Assembly (NCBI RefSeq): GCF_900143545.1
Contig: NZ_FREV01000001.1
Span: 372,001-436,000, forward strand
DNA length: 64,000 nt
DNA from: Loktanella sp. Alg231-35
GTDB lineage: Bacteria > Pseudomonadota > Alphaproteobacteria > Rhodobacterales > Rhodobacteraceae
Direction of reading: 5' to 3'
Shown: piece by piece, positions 54,751-63,475 of the stretch
How the letters are laid out: each line of letters begins with the position of its first letter
Position numbering within the stretch: the first letter of the stretch is position 1
The notes under the pieces: model-generated
What the model was told of the DNA's origin: nothing
Database searches by the model: none
The model's input: only the letters and a program-made list of their open reading frames with translations
Program-made: the position numbers and the translations under genes

Positions 54751-55221
54751 ATGCATAGAAAATTGGGAAGAATTCTGTTGGCCGCTATCCTGGGGCTGCT
54801 GCCTAAGGTGGCGATGGCTGACATGCTTGAGCTGTCTCAGGAACAGATGCGACAGCTTGTCGCCCAACAGCAAGTTCTGGGTACCGAGGCGATCTTAACA
54901 GACGCTTCCGCCACGTTTGGTGGCGATGTGATGGACATCCGCGGTTTTCTGTCAGAAGGCCGAATGACCTACCGTTTGCTGTTGAAACGTGGTGATGGGT
55001 CGGTTGTCGAATTACTCTATAACGGCGTCAACGGACAGCGCGTTTCGCACAACAGCGAGATGGGTCAGAGCGTTTCAAAGGTAGCACAAAGCAGCAACGG
55101 TAACTCGGGCGGCAACGGCAACTCTGGCAACAACGGCAATGGCAACGGGAACTCCGGTAACAACGGCAATGGCAACGGCAACTCCGGTAACAACGGCAAT
55201 GGCAACGGCCGCGGAAACTAA
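54751..55221 (+). CDS. Secreted protein with PepSY-like core and Gly/Asn repeats
   Basis: The 156-residue product has a signal peptide (to about residue 23, ending KVAMA), then a 75-residue region with VLGTEAILTDASATFGGDVM and RMTYRLLLKRGDGSVVELLY. This resembles small periplasmic PepSY-type domains that modulate sensor kinases. The C-terminus (residues about 93-156) is a low-complexity Gly/Asn/Ser tail with three 10-residue repeats. The gene immediately precedes a response regulator and sensor, and a periplasmic modulating role like that of FeuN in rhizobia is inferred. Confidence 0.65.
   Translation: MHRKLGRILLAAILGLLPKVAMADMLELSQEQMRQLVAQQQVLGTEAILTDASATFGGDVMDIRGFLSEGRMTYRLLLKRGDGSVVELLYNGVNGQRVSHNSEMGQSVSKVAQSSNGNSGGNGNSGNNGNGNGNSGNNGNGNGNSGNNGNGNGRGN
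55117..55206 (+). repeat. Three tandem 30-bp repeats inside the secreted protein gene
   Basis: Three near-identical 30-bp units (55117, 55147 and 55177) each encode GNSGNNGNGN. The DNA differs at only a few third positions, so copy number could change by slippage. Confidence 0.85.
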
Positions 55222-55274: not shown

Positions 55275-55937
55275 ATGCGTATTCTTGTTGCTGAAGATGA
55301 TATCGAACTCGCCGAACAAGTAAGACTGTCCCTGTCTCGGGAAGGGCATGCTGTTGATCTTGCCCCGGACGGCGACGAAGCAAAGTTTCTTGGTGAAACG
55401 GAACCCTATGACCTCATCGTGCTGGACCTCGGCTTGCCGAAACTGGACGGGATCACCGTTCTCAAGGCTTTGCGTGAGGCTGGCATCGACATTCCCGTTC
55501 TCATTCTGACGGCCCGTGATGGCTGGGCAGACCGGGTTGATGGGCTTGATGCAGGCGCCGATGACTATCTGACAAAACCGTTTCATGTGCTTGAATTGCT
55601 GGCGCGTTCGCGCGCCTTGCTGCGTCGAAATGCAACGCAGCGGAGCCCGGTCTTTAAAAAGGACGGCGTAAGCTATGACAGCAGGAACGGGCGGGTGACG
55701 CTTGACCAGATTCAAATCACATTGACGGCACAGGAAACCGCTGTGTTGTCCTATCTCTTCCATAATGCCAATCGGCCCATTTCGCGGACAGAGCTGTCCG
55801 AGCATATCTATCAATATGGCGATGATCGCGATTCTAATACGATTGCGGTCTTTATTACGCGTCTACGCAAGAAATTGGGCAATGAGCTGATCCAGACAGA
55901 ACACGGTCGAGGTTATTCGATCCAGCTTGGGACGTGA
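55275..55937 (+). CDS. OmpR-family response regulator (FeuP/PhoP-like)
   Basis: The 220-residue product has a receiver domain with the acidic pair in VAEDD, phospho-acceptor Asp51 in LIVLDLGLPKLDG, and the Lys in DYLTKPFHV. The C-terminal winged helix has ISRTELSEHIYQ and the end VFITRLRKKLGNELIQT followed by GRGYSI. It is cytoplasmic and binds DNA. Its stop overlaps the kinase start (GTGA). The closest match I can suggest is FeuP/PhoP; targets are unknown. Confidence 0.9.
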   Translation: MRILVAEDDIELAEQVRLSLSREGHAVDLAPDGDEAKFLGETEPYDLIVLDLGLPKLDGITVLKALREAGIDIPVLILTARDGWADRVDGLDAGADDYLTKPFHVLELLARSRALLRRNATQRSPVFKKDGVSYDSRNGRVTLDQIQITLTAQETAVLSYLFHNANRPISRTELSEHIYQYGDDRDSNTIAVFITRLRKKLGNELIQTEHGRGYSIQLGT

Positions 55938-57268
55938 AGTCGCTTCGCAGCCGTGCTGTTGCTGGGGGTGCCGTTTGGGCAACGATCGTGGCCTTGGCCG
56001 GAACGTCTGCTGTTGGCAACTACCTTGATCGCCTCACGCTATCGCGGTTTGATGAATTCCTGACCGCCCGGCATGCGCAGGTTGTTGTCGCCCTTGCAAA
56101 CAGCCACGGAGAGGCTGAGGCAATGCCGCGCCAGATCGGTGATCCCGTGTACCAGCGGCCATTTTCGGGCAACTACTGGCAAGTCGAAAGCGATGACGGG
56201 CGCATACTCGTATCTCGGTCCATGGCGGATTCACTCCTGCCAACAATGCCGTCAGCCAGCACTGATGTTACCGTGCAGAACGTCGCTGGCCCCGCAAGTC
56301 AGGAATTGCGCGTGCTCGCGCAAGAAGTGACGCTTGATGATGGAGCGGTCTGGCTTGTCAGAGTCGCCTCATCGACCCAAACAATTGATGCGGATCAGGC
56401 CGAACTCCGACGTCGTTTGAATATCTCTTTTGCTTTTGTCGGTGTGCTGGCGATTGCCGGTGCATTGCTGATCGTCTGGTTCACACTCAGGCCTCTGTCG
56501 CAATTGCGCCGGGACGTGATTGACCGCGAGACATATGAAGGCGAACTGCCCGTCGATGATTATCCGTTGGAAGTTCGCCCTCTTGTGACCGAAATCAACA
56601 ATCTGCTGGACCGGAACCGGGATATCGTTGACCGGTCTCGCAGGCAAACTGCCGATCTGGCCCATGCGATCAAGACCCCATCCTCTGTGCTGCGCAATGA
56701 ACTGTTTGAACTGCAACTGGGTGGCGTGTCGGTGCAAAGCGGCATCAATGCGCTTGACCGATTGGATGCTCAGCTCAACCGATCCTTTGCCCGGATGAAG
56801 GCCTCGCAGGATGGCGCGTCGGAAAAAGAAACGACAAGTCTGGATATCTGTCTGGCCCGTTTGGGGCGGGCATTCACGGCACTGGCCAAGAACAAGGATC
56901 GCGATGTGATCCTTGATGCCCCACCGGATTTGCATGCAAAGATCAACCAGATCGATTTTGAAGAAATTCTCGGCAATCTGTTGGACAACGCGCTCAAGTG
57001 GTCACGGTCTGCAATTGGCCTGAGTGTGTCGTCGTCGGACGATTGGGTTCATTTCAGCGTCGAGGACGACGGCGATGGCATTGCGGCTCATGCCGAGAAA
57101 CGCGCGTTGATCAGCGGCCAGCGTCTGGACGAAACCAAACCGGGCACGGGCTTGGGGCTGGCCATCGCCTCTGATCTGGTAGCAGCCTATCAGGGCACAA
57201 TTGATGTTGGCCGGTCCGAGGCGATGGGCGGCGCTAGGATTGTCGTGAATTTGCCTCGTGCGCATTAG
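55934..57268 (+). CDS. Two-component sensor histidine kinase (FeuQ/PhoQ-like)
   Basis: The 444-residue product starts at a GTG that overlaps the regulator stop. It has membrane segments at about residues 8-28 and 163-185 with a periplasmic sensor domain between them, then HAMP-like RPLSQLRRDV. The phospho-acceptor His244 lies in DLAHAIKTP. The ATPase domain has NLLDNALKW and VEDDGDGIA, and GTGLGLAIASDLV. The spacing suggests one operon from 54751 to here. Confidence 0.9.
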   Translation: MKSLRSRAVAGGAVWATIVALAGTSAVGNYLDRLTLSRFDEFLTARHAQVVVALANSHGEAEAMPRQIGDPVYQRPFSGNYWQVESDDGRILVSRSMADSLLPTMPSASTDVTVQNVAGPASQELRVLAQEVTLDDGAVWLVRVASSTQTIDADQAELRRRLNISFAFVGVLAIAGALLIVWFTLRPLSQLRRDVIDRETYEGELPVDDYPLEVRPLVTEINNLLDRNRDIVDRSRRQTADLAHAIKTPSSVLRNELFELQLGGVSVQSGINALDRLDAQLNRSFARMKASQDGASEKETTSLDICLARLGRAFTALAKNKDRDVILDAPPDLHAKINQIDFEEILGNLLDNALKWSRSAIGLSVSSSDDWVHFSVEDDGDGIAAHAEKRALISGQRLDETKPGTGLGLAIASDLVAAYQGTIDVGRSEAMGGARIVVNLPRAH

Positions 57269-57567: not shown

Positions 57568-59304
57568 ATGCGCAAGTATCTGCTCTCCGCAGTTGCGGTT
57601 TCTGCCGTGGTTGCGGGGTCCAATAGTGCTTTGGCTGATGAAGCGGCAGCACAGCGTTGGATTGATCAAGAATTCCAGCCGTCGACACTGTCCAAGGACG
57701 AACAGATGGCTGAAATGCAGTGGTTCATTGAAGCCGCACAACCCTATGCCGGGATGGAGATTAACGTGCTCTCCGAAGGCATTCCAACCCATTCCTACGA
57801 AAGCGAAGTGCTGACACGCGCCTTCGAGGAAATCACCGGCATCAAGGTGAACCACCAGATTTTGGGCGAAGGCGAGGTCGTTCAGGCCGTGCAGACCCAG
57901 ATGCAAACCGGCCGGAACCTTTATGACGCTTACGTCAACGATAGTGACCTGATCGGGACACACTCGCGTTTGCAGTTGGCGCGCAACCTGACCGACTTTA
58001 TGGCCGGTGAAGGTGCGGCGGTGACGAACCCCGATCTTGATCTGGATGACTTCATGGGTATCCAGTTCACGACGGGTCCAGATGGTGATCTCTATCAGAT
58101 GCCGGATCAGCAGTTTGCGAACCTTTATTGGTTCCGCAAGGACTGGTTCGACGATGAAGAAAACAAAGCTGCGTTCGAAGCCAAATATGGCTACGAGTTG
58201 GGCGTGCCGGTGAACTGGTCCGCTTATGAGGACATCGCCGAATTCTTCAGCAATGACGTGCAGGAAATCGACGGTGTGCGCATCTACGGTCACATGGATT
58301 ACGGCAAACGCGCGCCTGACCTTGGCTGGCGGATGACCGATGCCTGGCTGTCGATGGCCGGTGCAGGGTCTGTTGGCGAACCCAATGGTATCCCCATCGA
58401 TGAATGGGGCATCCGCATGGAAGCGGGCACATGTAACCCCGTTGGTGCATCTGTCACACGCGGTGGTGCGGCGAACGGTCCGGCTGCGGTCTATGCGATC
58501 CGCAAATGGGACGAATGGTTGCGTGCTTATGCGCCTCCAGGTGCCGCAAGCTATGACTTCTATCAGTCACTGCCTGCATTGGCCCAAGGCAACGTGGCCC
58601 AGCAAATCTTCTGGTACACGGCCTTTACCGCCGACATGGTCGCCCCTCAGTCTGCGGGCAACAACACTGTGGATGCCGATGGCAACCCACTGTGGCGCAT
58701 GGCCCCATCCCCGCATGGGCCGTACTGGGAAGAAGGCCAGAAGGTCGGCTATCAGGACGTGGGTTCCTGGACGATCCTGAACTCCACACCACTGGATCGT
58801 GCGCAAGCGGCTTGGCTTTATGCACAGTTCGTCGTGTCTAAAACGGTTGATGTGAAAAAATCCCATGTGGGTCTGACTTTCATCCGTGACAGCACAGTGA
58901 ACCACGAGTCGTTCTCTGAGCGTGCGCCGCAACTGGGTGGTTTGGTGGAATTCTACCGCTCGCCTGACCGTGTTGCATGGTCGCCAACGGGCATCAATGT
59001 GCCTGACTATCCAAAGCTGGCCCAGATTTGGTGGCAGCAGATTGGTGACGTGAATTCTGGTGCGTTTACCCCGCAAGAGGCGATGGATCGTCTGGCTGAG
59101 GAAATGGACATCACCATGTCACGGATGCAGGCCGCTGATGAAGCTGCCAACGTCTATGGCGGCTGTGGCCCACGTCTGAACGACGAACAAACTGCGGAGT
59201 ACTGGTTCGCAAACGGCGGCGCCAAGCCACCGCTTGAGAACGAAAAGCCGCAGGGCGAAACCGTCAACTACGACGAATTGGTTGCCCGGTGGGCAACTGA
59301 GTAA
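57568..59304 (+). CDS. glpV: Glycerol-type ABC transporter binding protein
   Basis: The 578-residue product is a family-1 extracellular binding protein with a signal peptide (to about residue 24, VAGSNSALADE). Typical parts are MEINVLSEGIPTHSYESEVL and, at the end, LNDEQTAEYWFANGGAKPP and ETVNYDELVARW. It is longer than most sugar-binding proteins, as is usual for the glycerol (GlpV) group. I use the ATG at 57568 because AAGGGAGGAGAA precedes it. Substrate assignment to glycerol rests on the operon content, including the DUF2160 gene. Confidence 0.87.
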   Translation: MRKYLLSAVAVSAVVAGSNSALADEAAAQRWIDQEFQPSTLSKDEQMAEMQWFIEAAQPYAGMEINVLSEGIPTHSYESEVLTRAFEEITGIKVNHQILGEGEVVQAVQTQMQTGRNLYDAYVNDSDLIGTHSRLQLARNLTDFMAGEGAAVTNPDLDLDDFMGIQFTTGPDGDLYQMPDQQFANLYWFRKDWFDDEENKAAFEAKYGYELGVPVNWSAYEDIAEFFSNDVQEIDGVRIYGHMDYGKRAPDLGWRMTDAWLSMAGAGSVGEPNGIPIDEWGIRMEAGTCNPVGASVTRGGAANGPAAVYAIRKWDEWLRAYAPPGAASYDFYQSLPALAQGNVAQQIFWYTAFTADMVAPQSAGNNTVDADGNPLWRMAPSPHGPYWEEGQKVGYQDVGSWTILNSTPLDRAQAAWLYAQFVVSKTVDVKKSHVGLTFIRDSTVNHESFSERAPQLGGLVEFYRSPDRVAWSPTGINVPDYPKLAQIWWQQIGDVNSGAFTPQEAMDRLAEEMDITMSRMQAADEAANVYGGCGPRLNDEQTAEYWFANGGAKPPLENEKPQGETVNYDELVARWATE

Positions 59305-59391: not shown

Positions 59392-60465
59392 ATGACACTG
59401 CAAGTTAAGAATATTACCAAGGTCGTCGATGGCCGGACCCATATCAAGTCCACGTCGCTGACACTTGAGACCGGGCACTTCAACGTGCTGTTGGGCCAGA
59501 CCGGATCGGGCAAGACATCCCTGATCAAGATGATGGCGGGGTTGGAACCGATTGCCAGCGGCGCAGTCATTTTGGATGGCCAGGATGTCACCAAATTGAG
59601 CACCCAAAGGCGCAACATCTCTTTGGTCCACCAGTTCTTTGTCAATTATCCCCATATGACGGTCTACGATAACATCGCTTCGCCGTTGAAAGTGGCCGGT
59701 ATGGCGAAATCTGAAATCCAAGGCCGGGTCGAAGAAGCCGCCGATATCCTGCAGCTGCGCCCCATGCTGCTCCGCCGCCCGCATGAATTGTCCGGTGGTC
59801 AGCAGCAACGCACCGCCCTGGCCCGAGCCATTGCTAAAGAAAGCCGCGCTGTGTTCCTTGATGAACCGCTGGCCAACCTCGACTATAAGCTCCGCGAGGA
59901 ATTGCGCGAACAGCTGCCGGAACTATTTGCCGGACGGGGCGCGGTTGTTGTCTATGCCACGTCAGAGCCGGAAGAAGCCCTGTTGCTGGGTGGTCAGACG
60001 GGTTTGATGGATGATGGCCAGGTTGTGCAGTTCGGACGCACAGCGGATCTTTATCGCACACCGACGTCACTGACTGCGGCTGCAGTATTCTCTGACCCGC
60101 CGATCAACCAAGCGTCAGTGACAAAAACTGGCGATCAGATCAAAATGGGCGATACCGTTTGGCCTGCCGAGGGCGAGGCCAAGGGGTTGGCAGATGGTGA
60201 CTATGTCGTTGCCATTCGTCCCCACCACGTTACCCCGACGGCCACAGACAAGAACACCGTGCCGCTTTCTGGCCGCGTGCTTGTGATGGAATTGTCAGGC
60301 TCTGAAAGCTCTGCCCACTTTCGTCTACCCGTAGGGGATTGGGTGTCGCTGTCGCATGGCACTCATCCCTATCAGGTTGGTGTGGATCACCCGTTCTATC
60401 TTGATCCCTCAGCTTGTTTTTACTTCGCACCTGATGGTGCCACTGTAGCAGGAGCAGCCATCTAA
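59392..60465 (+). CDS. glpS: Glycerol ABC transporter ATPase GlpS (altered switch His)
   Basis: The 357-residue ATPase has Walker A GQTGSGKT (35-42), Gln81 of the Q-loop, the canonical signature LSGGQ (133-137) and Walker B AVFLDE (153-158). Where the switch His normally sits (VTHDQ) it has VVYATSEPEEAL, so His is replaced by Ser191. A regulatory domain follows from about residue 240. The start of glpT overlaps the stop (TAATG). Pairing with GlpT is discussed in the findings. Confidence 0.9.
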   Translation: MTLQVKNITKVVDGRTHIKSTSLTLETGHFNVLLGQTGSGKTSLIKMMAGLEPIASGAVILDGQDVTKLSTQRRNISLVHQFFVNYPHMTVYDNIASPLKVAGMAKSEIQGRVEEAADILQLRPMLLRRPHELSGGQQQRTALARAIAKESRAVFLDEPLANLDYKLREELREQLPELFAGRGAVVVYATSEPEEALLLGGQTGLMDDGQVVQFGRTADLYRTPTSLTAAAVFSDPPINQASVTKTGDQIKMGDTVWPAEGEAKGLADGDYVVAIRPHHVTPTATDKNTVPLSGRVLVMELSGSESSAHFRLPVGDWVSLSHGTHPYQVGVDHPFYLDPSACFYFAPDGATVAGAAI

Positions 60466-61541
60466 TGGCCAAGATTACCCTGTCGAAGCTGCGGCATAGC
60501 TATTTGCCCAATCCGACATCGCCTGCTGATTATGCGCTCAAGGAAGTCGACCTTGATTGGTCCGATGGCGGCGCATACGCCTTGCTGGGCCCGTCCGGCT
60601 GTGGCAAGTCAACGTTGCTGAACATCATTTCCGGCTTGCTGACGCCATCGGAGGGGCAGATCCTGTTTGATGACCAGGACGTCACTGCGTTGCCACCTGA
60701 CAGACGCAATATCGCGCAAGTTTTCCAGTTTCCTGTCATCTACGACACGATGACAGTCTACGACAATCTGGCCTTTCCCTTGCGCAATCGCGGTATGAAT
60801 GAGGCAATGGTCAGCGCACGTGTTGCAGAGATCGCTACCATGCTCGAAGTCACTGATTTGCTAAGCGCCAAGGCCGCAGGCCTGTCCCCTGATAACAAGC
60901 AAAAGATATCCATGGGACGTGGGTTAGTCCGAGACGACGTAAATGTCGTGATGTTTGATGAACCGCTCACCGTGATTGACCCGCATCTGAAGTGGAAGCT
61001 GCGTTCCAAGCTGAAGGAACTGCACCAGAAGGTGCAGGCAACGATGATCTATGTGACCCATGACCAGACCGAGGCACTCACCTTTGCCGATCAGGTTGTG
61101 GTGATGCAGGACGGTGAAGTTGTGCAGATCGGCACGCCAGAAGAATTGTTCGAACGGCCCGCGCATACATTTGTCGGCCACTTTATCGGATCGCCCGGCA
61201 TGAACGTTCTTTCTGCAGAAATGCGTGACGGCGGCGCGTTCCTTGGCGAGCATAATGTTGCCCTAGAAGGTGCGGTCACGGCAAAGGAGGGCACACCACA
61301 GATTGGCATCCGACCCGAGTTTGTACAGATCGGCGATGTGGGCCTGCCCGCGACGGTGCGCAAAGTGTCCGATATTGGCCGCCACAGCGTGGTCGAGGCG
61401 ATGATCGGTGACACATCCGTCAAAGCGATCACCGATGGTGCTGTGCCAGAACAGGGTGCCGCCGTTCATCTGCAATTTCAACAAGACCAGACCCGGCTTT
61501 ACCGCGATGGCTGGCTTGCGACGACAGGGGCAGCATCATGA
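60465..61541 (+). CDS. glpT: Glycerol ABC transporter ATPase GlpT (degenerate signature)
   Basis: The 358-residue ATPase has Walker A GPSGCGKST (42-50), Gln88, Walker B VVMFDE (161-166) and the canonical switch His199 in VTHDQTEAL. The LSGGQ signature is replaced by LSPDN (140-144). A regulatory domain with PQIGIRPEFVQIGD follows. It is coupled to glpS and overlaps glpP (ATGA). Confidence 0.9.
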   Translation: MAKITLSKLRHSYLPNPTSPADYALKEVDLDWSDGGAYALLGPSGCGKSTLLNIISGLLTPSEGQILFDDQDVTALPPDRRNIAQVFQFPVIYDTMTVYDNLAFPLRNRGMNEAMVSARVAEIATMLEVTDLLSAKAAGLSPDNKQKISMGRGLVRDDVNVVMFDEPLTVIDPHLKWKLRSKLKELHQKVQATMIYVTHDQTEALTFADQVVVMQDGEVVQIGTPEELFERPAHTFVGHFIGSPGMNVLSAEMRDGGAFLGEHNVALEGAVTAKEGTPQIGIRPEFVQIGDVGLPATVRKVSDIGRHSVVEAMIGDTSVKAITDGAVPEQGAAVHLQFQQDQTRLYRDGWLATTGAAS

Positions 61542-62401
61542 AAACCCAAAATCACAAGGCGTGGTTCTTTGTTTTGCCGGTCCTTTTGCTGGTCGCGTTC
61601 AATGCGTTGATTCCGATGATGACGGTGGTCAATTATTCGGTGCAGGAAACATTTGGTAACAACGTGTTCTTCTGGGAAGGGCTGCGTTGGTTCGAAGAAT
61701 TGCTGAATTCCGACCGGTTTCATGCGGCATTGGGCCGTCAGTTCCTTTTCACAGGGTTGATCCTTTTGATCGAGGTTCCGTTGGGTGTGATCATCGCCTT
61801 GTCGATGCCGCGCAAGGGCCCTTGGGTGCCAGTTTGTCTAGTGCTGATGGCGTTGCCGATGCTGATCCCGTGGAACGTCGTGGGGGCGATGTGGAACATC
61901 TTTACCCTGCCTGACATTGGCCTTCTGGGCTATCTGATGAACACCACGTTGGGCATTGACTATGACATGACGCAAAGCCCCTTTGCGGCCTGGGCGACCA
62001 TCATCACGATGGATGTCTGGCATTGGACGTCGCTTGTTGTGCTCTTGTCCTACGCAGGCCTCGTGTCGATCCCAGATGCCTATTATCAGGCGGCCAAGAT
62101 TGACGGGGCGTCGCCTTTCAAAGTGTTCCGCTACATTCAATTGCCCAAAATGAAACAGGTCCTGACCATCGCGATCCTGCTAAGATTCATGGACAGCTTT
62201 AACATCTACACCGAGGTCTTTGTGCTGACCGGTGGTGGCCCCGGCAACTCAACCACATTGTTGTCAATCGACCTTGTCAAAATCGCCCTTGGGCAGTTTG
62301 ACCTAGGCCCGGCGGCGGCGATGTCACTGATCTACTTTGCCATCACATTGCTGGTCAGCTGGCTGTTCTACACACTTATGACGAAAGACGACGCGAAATG
62401 A
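61538..62401 (+). CDS. glpP: Glycerol ABC transporter permease GlpP
   Basis: The first permease subunit, 287 residues, with about six membrane segments and the EAA-type loop PDAYYQAAKIDGASPFKVFR. It starts within the glpT stop (ATGA) and overlaps glpQ in the same way. The N-terminal segment FFVLPVLLLVAFNALIPM is the first helix. Confidence 0.92.
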   Translation: MKTQNHKAWFFVLPVLLLVAFNALIPMMTVVNYSVQETFGNNVFFWEGLRWFEELLNSDRFHAALGRQFLFTGLILLIEVPLGVIIALSMPRKGPWVPVCLVLMALPMLIPWNVVGAMWNIFTLPDIGLLGYLMNTTLGIDYDMTQSPFAAWATIITMDVWHWTSLVVLLSYAGLVSIPDAYYQAAKIDGASPFKVFRYIQLPKMKQVLTIAILLRFMDSFNIYTEVFVLTGGGPGNSTTLLSIDLVKIALGQFDLGPAAAMSLIYFAITLLVSWLFYTLMTKDDAK

Positions 62402-63195
62402 AAAAGCGGTCCCTCATCCCGATCATCTACATCGCGTTCCTGATGCTGCCGATCTATTGGCTGGTGGCGATGTCGTTCAAAACCACGAATGAGATCTTGG
62501 CAGGGTTCAGCCTGTTCCCCCAAAGTTTCACGCTGGAAAACTATGTCACCATCTTTACCGACCCGACTTGGTACTGGGGTTACATCAACTCGATCATCTA
62601 TGTTTCGCTGAACACGGCCATATCGCTGGCTGTGGCTTTGCCTGCGGCCTATGCGTTCAGCCGCTATCGCTTCTTAGGTGACAAGACGCTGTTTTTCTGG
62701 CTTTTGACCAACCGAATGGCCCCCGCGGCGGTCTTTGCTTTGCCGTTCTTTCAGCTTTATTCAGCGGTTGAGCTTTTCGACACGCATATCGCGGTCGCGC
62801 TGGCGCATTGCCTGTTCAATATCCCGCTGGCGGTCTGGATTTTGGAAGGGTTCATGAGCGGGGTACCTAAGGAGTTGGACGAAACCGCCTATGTTGATGG
62901 CTATTCCTTCCCCCGGTTCTTCACCACGATCTTTCTGCCTTCCATCAAAGCTGGCGTGGGCGTTGCCGCTTTCTTCTGCTTCATGTTCTCATGGGTGGAG
63001 TTGCTGCTCGCTAAGACACTCACGGCAGTCGAGGCCAAACCAATTGCCGCAACGATGACCAAAACGGCCTCATCGGCGGGCTATGAACTGGGGCTGTTGG
63101 CAGCAGCAGGCACATTGACCATCATACCGGGCGCCATCGTGATTTATTTCGTGCGCAACTACATTGCCAAGGGCTTTGCCCTGGGGAGGGTCTGA
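62398..63195 (+). CDS. glpQ: Glycerol ABC transporter permease GlpQ
   Basis: The second permease subunit, 265 residues, MalG-like, with about six membrane segments and the EAA motif PKELDETAYVDGYSFPRFF. The start overlaps glpP. The DUF2160 gene starts 1 bp after the stop. Confidence 0.92.
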   Translation: MKKRSLIPIIYIAFLMLPIYWLVAMSFKTTNEILAGFSLFPQSFTLENYVTIFTDPTWYWGYINSIIYVSLNTAISLAVALPAAYAFSRYRFLGDKTLFFWLLTNRMAPAAVFALPFFQLYSAVELFDTHIAVALAHCLFNIPLAVWILEGFMSGVPKELDETAYVDGYSFPRFFTTIFLPSIKAGVGVAAFFCFMFSWVELLLAKTLTAVEAKPIAATMTKTASSAGYELGLLAAAGTLTIIPGAIVIYFVRNYIAKGFALGRV

Positions 63196-63196
63196 T

Positions 63197-63475
63197 ATGT
63201 TTGGCTGGATGGCATGGACTTGGCCTACGGGGCTGTTTTTCATCGGGTTGTTCACCGCAATGGGGATCATCACCTTCATCGAAATCCGCTACCCCGGCAC
63301 GTCCGAGCGCAAGGGCATTTTGGGGTTAACGACGACGCGGGGCGATAGATTGTTTCTGTCGTTGTTGGGTACGGCTTACATCTTTCTGGCTTGGATATTC
63401 TTCTTTGGCATGCCGCTTTGGGGCCCGCTGGCGATCAGCATTGGCTGGGGGCTGATTTGTTTTTGGAAGGTCTGA
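63197..63475 (+). CDS. glpU: DUF2160 small membrane protein of the glycerol operon
   Basis: The 92-residue product begins MFGWMAWTWPTGLFFIGLF and has about three membrane segments, with the conserved GLTTTRGDRLFLSLLG in the loop. This is the DUF2160 family that accompanies glycerol ABC importers in rhizobia (GlpU). Its role is unknown. I start at the ATG at 63197, after GGGGAGGG, rather than the longer frame that overlaps glpQ. Confidence 0.87.
   Translation: MFGWMAWTWPTGLFFIGLFTAMGIITFIEIRYPGTSERKGILGLTTTRGDRLFLSLLGTAYIFLAWIFFFGMPLWGPLAISIGWGLICFWKV

Follow-up and report, generated by a model that had tools for sequence, protein, structure and literature searches.

The window, a stretch of 64,000 nucleotides from Loktanella sp. 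Alg231-35, carries on its plus strand an ABC importer operon that encodes a solute-binding protein, the ATPases GlpS and GlpT, two permeases and a small membrane protein of the PF09928/DUF2160 family, in the order V-S-T-P-Q-U:

57568..59304, + strand, glpV-like periplasmic solute-binding protein (PF01547), with an internal ATG as the putative start
59392..60465, + strand, glpS, ABC ATPase of 357 aa, nucleotide-binding domain plus MalK-type regulatory domain
60465..61541, + strand, glpT, ABC ATPase of 358 aa, with the architecture of glpS
61538..62401, + strand, glpP-like permease (PF00528)
62398..63195, + strand, glpQ-like permease (PF00528)
63197..63475, + strand, small membrane protein in the glpU position (PF09928/DUF2160), the operon marker in the survey

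The glpS and glpT genes overlap by one base, and to our knowledge no function has been assigned to the DUF2160 (PF09928) protein. Gene names were taken from Rhizobium leguminosarum glpSTPQUV, as presented in an excerpt of PMC7912956, and from the annotation 'glycerol transport system ATP-binding protein' that some close homologues carry; the set of two MalK-like ATPases, two permeases, a DUF2160 protein and a solute-binding protein fits GlpSTPQUV. Directly upstream of the transporter lie genes for a response regulator and a sensor kinase (55275-57268), and a BLAST search (E up to 1e-20) found no homologue of the kinase in the other 164 fetched loci. An ORF of 156 aa with C-terminal Gly/Asn/Ser repeats (GNGNSGNNG) and no Pfam match occupies 54751-55221. 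Just downstream of the operon, a BlaI/MecI-like repressor gene (PF03965, 63540-63950) is followed by a BlaR1-type M56 peptidase gene (L212:11941-13065).

GlpS and GlpT each consist of an ABC domain followed by an OB-type regulatory domain, the architecture of MalK-type (CUT1) ATPases, and the folds predicted for the two single chains are likewise MalK-like. The MalK of MalFGK2 forms a homodimer whose two sites are identical and complete, the one-gene arrangement with two canonical ATP sites that marks the MalK-type (CUT1) class, whereas GlpST is encoded by two different genes, neither of which holds a full motif set, and has one complete site. The D-loop goes with the signature side of a composite site. 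As for the remaining elements, part of PMC7756269 sets out that one subunit of an ABC dimer supplies the A-loop, Walker A/B, Q-loop and H-loop of a site and its partner the signature. The corresponding elements of the window are the following:

59425..59427, + strand, GlpS Val12 at the A-loop aromatic position, deviant site
59494..59517, + strand, GlpS Walker A GQTGSGKT, canonical in the window
59788..59802, + strand, GlpS signature LSGGQ, residues 133-137, part of the complete site
59863..59865, + strand, GlpS Walker B Glu158, kept in the deviant site
59869..59883, + strand, GlpS D-loop LANLD, complete site
59962..59964, + strand, GlpS Ser191 (TCA) at the switch (H-loop) His position, deviant site
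60501..60503, + strand, GlpT A-loop Tyr13, complete site
60588..60611, + strand, GlpT Walker A GPSGCGKS, complete site
60882..60896, + strand, GlpT LSPDN, residues 140-144, where LSGGQ is expected, deviant site
60960..60962, + strand, GlpT Walker B Glu166, complete site
60966..60980, + strand, GlpT D-loop LTVID (LSNLD in six sister ATPases), deviant site
61059..61061, + strand, GlpT switch His199 (CAT), complete site

A preliminary description of this DNA had paired LSGGQ with Ser191 in place of the switch His in GlpS, and His199 with LSPDN in place of LSGGQ in GlpT. All four are in frame in the DNA and are confirmed by alignment, in which Ser191 (context YATSEP, against YVTHDQ in relatives with known structure) falls on the switch His, and LSPDN on the LSGGQ, of solved MalK-type ATPases. 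That list of defects was right as far as it went and missed the changes in the A-loop and D-loop, a Walker A change in most relatives and the Walker B Glu retained by GlpS. Site 1, composed of the nucleotide side of GlpS and the signature of GlpT, deviates at the A-loop, often at Walker A, and at the H-loop, signature and D-loop, and still keeps the Walker A Lys, the Walker B Asp-Glu and the Q-loop Gln. Site 2, composed of the nucleotide side of GlpT and the signature of GlpS, is canonical at the A-loop, Walker A/B, Q-loop, His and signature; it is imperfect in the D-loop supplied by GlpS, which reads [AV]NLD against SNLD in the six sister ATPases. Homodimers of GlpS or of GlpT have no complete site, and the heterodimer is therefore the only pairing of the two that gives one.

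The DUF2160 family served as an independent marker for a survey in which loci were chosen without reference to the ATPase motifs. A DUF2160 match was present in 85 of 398 sampled Pseudomonadota genomes, including that of the window, and the first set accordingly comprises 85 pairs, from the window and from one locus in each of the 84 other genomes. The second set was obtained by scanning named genomes with the GlpT alignment and taking the best 80 loci among the matches listed, which by name are mostly alphaproteobacterial (Roseobacter types, SAR11, rhizobia), with some gammaproteobacterial loci and one betaproteobacterial locus (a Rubrivivax MAG). N-terminal protein extensions were trimmed by BLAST coordinates ahead of alignment. 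Pooling gave 165 GlpT rows (the best 80 named loci, 84 and 1) and 162 readable GlpS rows (77 of the best 80 named loci, 84 and the window), the excluded rows being L155 and L166, with no GlpS, and L204, with a 142-residue fragment. Some genomes may be represented in both collections (L100 and L132 seem to be the same), and locus counts are not independent events because all loci share one ancestral state. The third set takes from the database the 120 best homologues of each subunit, GlpS and GlpT, with the protein of the window itself in the GlpS list.

The claim that the two defects fall in one composite site and leave the other complete holds throughout, in 85/85 pairs and across the pooled 162 GlpS and 165 GlpT rows. 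Among the 85 pairs alone, GlpS has LSGGQ in 85/85 and a switch residue that is Thr in 79 and Ser in 6, and GlpT has the switch His in 85/85 and never LSGGQ. In the pooled Pseudomonadota rows, which include the best 80 named loci listed, the GlpS signature is LSGGQ in 162/162 and its switch position is Thr in 116, Ser in 46 and His in none. GlpT in the same rows has the switch His in 165/165 and LSGGQ in 0/165, so that a non-canonical signature always faces the deviant site; the pattern L-[TSAG]-[AP]-D-x describes 164/165, with Ala or Pro at position 3 in all 165, Asp at position 4 in 164/165, and Lys-Gln directly after the signature in 165/165. The altered D-loop is equally constant, TVID being found in all 165 GlpT rows. 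On the GlpS side, the A-loop position is Val in 145/162 and non-aromatic in 160/162, an aromatic residue (Phe) occurring in 2/162. The fourth position of the GlpS Walker A, drawn from Leu, Gly, Gln, Asn, Ser and His, is Gly in only 34/162 rows and another residue in 128/162 (Leu 109, Gln 10), with the Lys kept. The Walker A Lys, Q-loop Gln and Walker B Asp-Glu of GlpS are present in 162/162. The complete site, in the 85/85 pairs and the pooled rows, keeps the Tyr A-loop (165/165 GlpT rows), the Walker A motif (fourth Gly 165/165), the Walker B Glu (Asp-Glu 165/165), the Q-loop Gln, the His and LSGGQ, and family-wide it carries Ala or Val for the first Ser of SNLD in the GlpS D-loop. No intermediate, whether a GlpS with His or a GlpT with LSGGQ, occurs in the Pseudomonadota rows examined.

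Conservation of Ser191 and LSPDN had been named as a check: the deviant states are conserved, and the exact letters are typical of the window's own subclade, the family as a whole having Thr/Ser and L-[TSAG]-[AP]-D-x. Within the third set, Ser is found in 120/120 of the best GlpS homologues, and the best GlpT homologues have LxPDN in 120/120 and a D-loop of LTVID in 119 or LTAID in 1. We discounted a sequencing or frame artefact, as the states recur in these 120 + 120 close homologues and in the pooled loci.

To gauge how far each loss is diagnostic, we compared 27 ABC ATPases chosen from the 86 same-genome matches (a figure that includes GlpT and GlpS), leaving out GlpS, GlpT and some fused and weaker matches; two of the controls (L221, L230) have stops inside the match, and some distant ones seem to be misaligned in the D-loop columns. 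The switch His and the fourth Gly of Walker A are present in 27/27 controls, as is the Gly at signature position 4; the Gly at position 3 is present in 26/27, exact LSGGQ in only 13/27, and an A-loop aromatic in 20/27, with 7/27 lacking one. Because of these counts, loss of the His and of the signature Gly is strongly diagnostic and loss of the A-loop aromatic less so. A second comparison comes from L123-L128, a group with a binding protein, two permeases, a short or partial DUF2160 match and one MalK-type ATPase gene, which is possibly a sister system of GlpST. The six ATPases of this group are all canonical (GPSGCGKS, LSGGQ, LSNLD, His, Tyr A-loop). All six systems occur in genomes that carry a GlpST locus too.

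The preliminary description had further held that the complementarity of the two defects argues for selection and not decay. Selection is supported; complementarity itself is weak evidence for it, because one defect in each subunit will share a composite site half the time by chance. The main case for selection instead lies in conservation, in the additional A-loop and D-loop changes gathered in one site, and in codon turnover. The Thr, Val and Ile of the GlpT D-loop are encoded by four, four and three codons, respectively, the signature Asp of GlpT by GAC (111) and GAT (53), and the Thr/Ser at the GlpS switch position by ten codons; residues of the deviant site thus stay fixed while their codons turn over, which indicates that purifying selection acts on them. 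No examined row shows erosion of the GlpS LSGGQ or the GlpT His, both of which serve site 2 alone. Site 1 is relaxed in part, as seen from its variable positions, which changed on the pair tree 6 times (GlpS Walker A position 4) and 16 and 17 times (GlpT signature positions 2 and 5). Co-change between deviant residues of GlpS and GlpT, scored over 161 distinct pairs on a quick tree with the motif columns removed, yielded only 1 to 3 independent pairs per test. The random substitutions in homologues that had been proposed as a counter-indication were looked for and did not appear: the deviations stay within a narrow set of residues, and no readable pair has lost the matching canonical motifs.

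We consider it probable that GlpS and GlpT form the obligate heterodimer of a MalK-type importer with one hydrolytic site and one conserved site that hydrolyses ATP slowly or not at all. Heterodimerization is inferred because the genes adjoin and homodimers lack any complete site. The GlpS-GlpT heterodimer would power uptake of glycerol or a close relative, with the A-loop, Walker A/B, Q-loop and His199 of GlpT and the LSGGQ of GlpS forming the complete site at which hydrolysis would occur. The Val A-loop, Walker A/B and Ser/Thr 'switch' of GlpS would form the other site with the L-x-x-D-x signature and TVID D-loop of GlpT; keeping its phosphate- and Mg-binding residues, this deviant site would bind nucleotide differently, hydrolyse little or none, and most likely be the fixed hinge or the allosteric half of the dimer, at a cost of roughly one ATP per cycle. 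We also put forward, tentatively and as a rather unlikely extension, a single-stroke importer in which the GlpS-side site would be a conserved nucleotide-sensing or even empty hinge and exactly one ATP would drive transport. Such a site would have no adenine-stacking aromatic, no switch His and a re-made D-loop, an Asp would stand where the signature Gly should meet the gamma-phosphate, and the catalytic Glu would have been kept for another role. If true, the degenerate site would follow a design that differs from the Glu-less type of exporters and is stable across the sampled Pseudomonadota lineages.

The retained catalytic residues bear on the alternative that both sites hydrolyse ATP, with the GlpS site only slower or acting at a different time. 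An excerpt of PMC7544095 calls loss of the Walker B Glu the hallmark of a degenerate site, and with Asp-Glu, Walker A Lys and Q-loop Gln intact in 162/162 GlpS rows, slow or residual hydrolysis at the deviant site is possible. Nevertheless, we judge turnover at both sites improbable, given a GlpS that lacks the switch His in 162/162 and the aromatic A-loop in 160/162, a GlpT that opposes it with no LSGGQ and an altered D-loop in 165/165, and the presence of signature changes in all human degenerate sites as described in part of PMC7756269. The variability of GlpS Walker A position 4 and of GlpT signature positions 2 and 5 would fit a relaxed decay in which the deviant site suffered an ancestral loss and has since drifted with no role. 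This account is very hard to reconcile with a TVID (165/165) and a signature Asp (164/165) followed by Lys-Gln (165/165) that stay fixed despite codon turnover, or with a GlpS switch position confined to Thr/Ser and a Walker B Glu present in 162/162, and random decay as the main reading was set aside with the deviant residues restricted and conserved. Finally, GlpS and GlpT might not be partners and might instead form homodimers or pair with other MalK-type ATPases, in which case a complete composite site would not be required. Some MalK-type ATPases do serve several importers, as is reported for MsmK, and this genome has many GlpT-related ABC ATPases (86 matches, GlpT and GlpS included); yet separate partners are scarcely credible when homodimers would have no complete site and when glpS and glpT adjoin, with a single P and a single Q permease gene after them, in 84/84 of the other main PF09928 loci.

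GlpST belongs to the 'degenerate site' class by its signature, which is non-canonical opposite the GlpS nucleotide side, and departs from that class in the Walker B catalytic Glu, the loss of which is called the hallmark in PMC7544095 and which GlpS keeps in 162/162 rows. Because the Walker A Lys, Q-loop Gln and Walker B Glu are retained, site 1 is not of the Glu-less kind. Degenerate sites are well documented in exporters. According to an excerpt of PMC7756269, the exporters TAP1/2, CFTR, ABCB11, Pdr5 and ABCG5/G8 resemble GlpST in having one consensus and one deviant composite site, with the signature changed on one side and other motifs on the other; the same source gives change of the Walker B Glu as the second most frequent deviation in human exporters, and this change is absent in GlpS. 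The pattern of ABCG5/G8, a signature and a Walker A change, is nearer to that of GlpST. Canonical residues placed in the deviant site of TAP (ABCB2/B3) or Pdr5 are reported in part of PMC7756269 to lower transport or coupling. The remark that such asymmetry is less well known in importers is fair, but RbsA and NupO of Bacillus subtilis are described, in part of PMC11466899, as importers with one site judged degenerate from sequence. These resemble GlpST in that respect and differ in being classed as type II importers with fused NBDs, in a second Walker A without the Lys that GlpS keeps and, for NupO, in a second Walker B without the Asp and Glu, both of which GlpS keeps. The dipeptide importer ATPases DppD and DppF are, like GlpS and GlpT, products of two genes serving one importer; unlike them, both are described with functional binding-and-hydrolysis motifs (excerpt of PMC12136057).

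GlpST should operate as an asymmetric ABC machine. We found no report of ATP-site asymmetry in GlpST in searches of an open-access library, and the excerpt of PMC7912956 on the Rhizobium and Cupriavidus systems does not take up the subject. The number of ATP hydrolysed in each cycle, one or two, was called not entirely clear in 2015 (part of PMC4707154), and the two sites of MalK are reported not to be independent (part of PMC2896483). A natural MalK-type importer with one complete site makes the ATP-per-cycle question directly testable, GlpST provides a naturally occurring case in which to ask whether a single ATP site suffices for uptake, and the retained Walker B Glu makes the effects of signature, A-loop and His loss separable from those of Glu loss.

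The origin of the two subunits was examined in a tree of 73 rows, drawn from 28/163 S, 28/165 T, 4/6 sister and 13/27 own-genome ATPases. GlpS and GlpT each form one clade with 100/100 support among the MalK-type ATPases, and the asymmetry thus predates diversification of the sampled systems. Both clades sit on very long stems (2.38 and 2.25 changes per column); the best tree does not group S with T, and the AU test does not reject a clade that unites them (p 0.40). The two may have arisen by duplication within the system or by separate recruitment.

GlpSTPQ(U)V of R. leguminosarum VF39 and its Cupriavidus metallidurans homologue have the same gene set as the window, according to part of PMC7912956. 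They are also alike in that glpR/glpD/glpK lie nearby in many loci, and the window differs from them in having the binding-protein gene first and glpR/D/K elsewhere: glpR-, glpD- and glpK-like genes lie together on another contig of this genome. Two gene orders recur among the 164 loci (the best 80 named loci listed included), V-S-T-P-Q-U in 71 and S-T-P-Q-U-V in 88, with neither assigned in 5. A glpK or glpD homologue, sought by BLAST with the proteins of this genome (E up to 1e-20), is present in the fetched locus for 35/71 V-first and 71/88 V-last loci. Glycerol is the likely substrate in this genome. A Ralstonia strain on glycerol had increased glpSTPQV transcripts together with those of the glycerol cluster (part of PMC11223650). 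C. metallidurans could grow on glycerol without the homologous transporter, and became more resistant to zinc and cadmium when the transporter was upregulated (part of PMC7912956). Among the best 80 listed, twelve loci are from SAR11 (Pelagibacteraceae/Pelagibacterales by title; L173-L176, L178, L182, L187, L188, L190, L193, L194 and L206), with the order V-S-T-P-Q-U and the same ATP-site asymmetry as in the window, and 11 of these 12 have a GlpK homologue within the fetched stretch.
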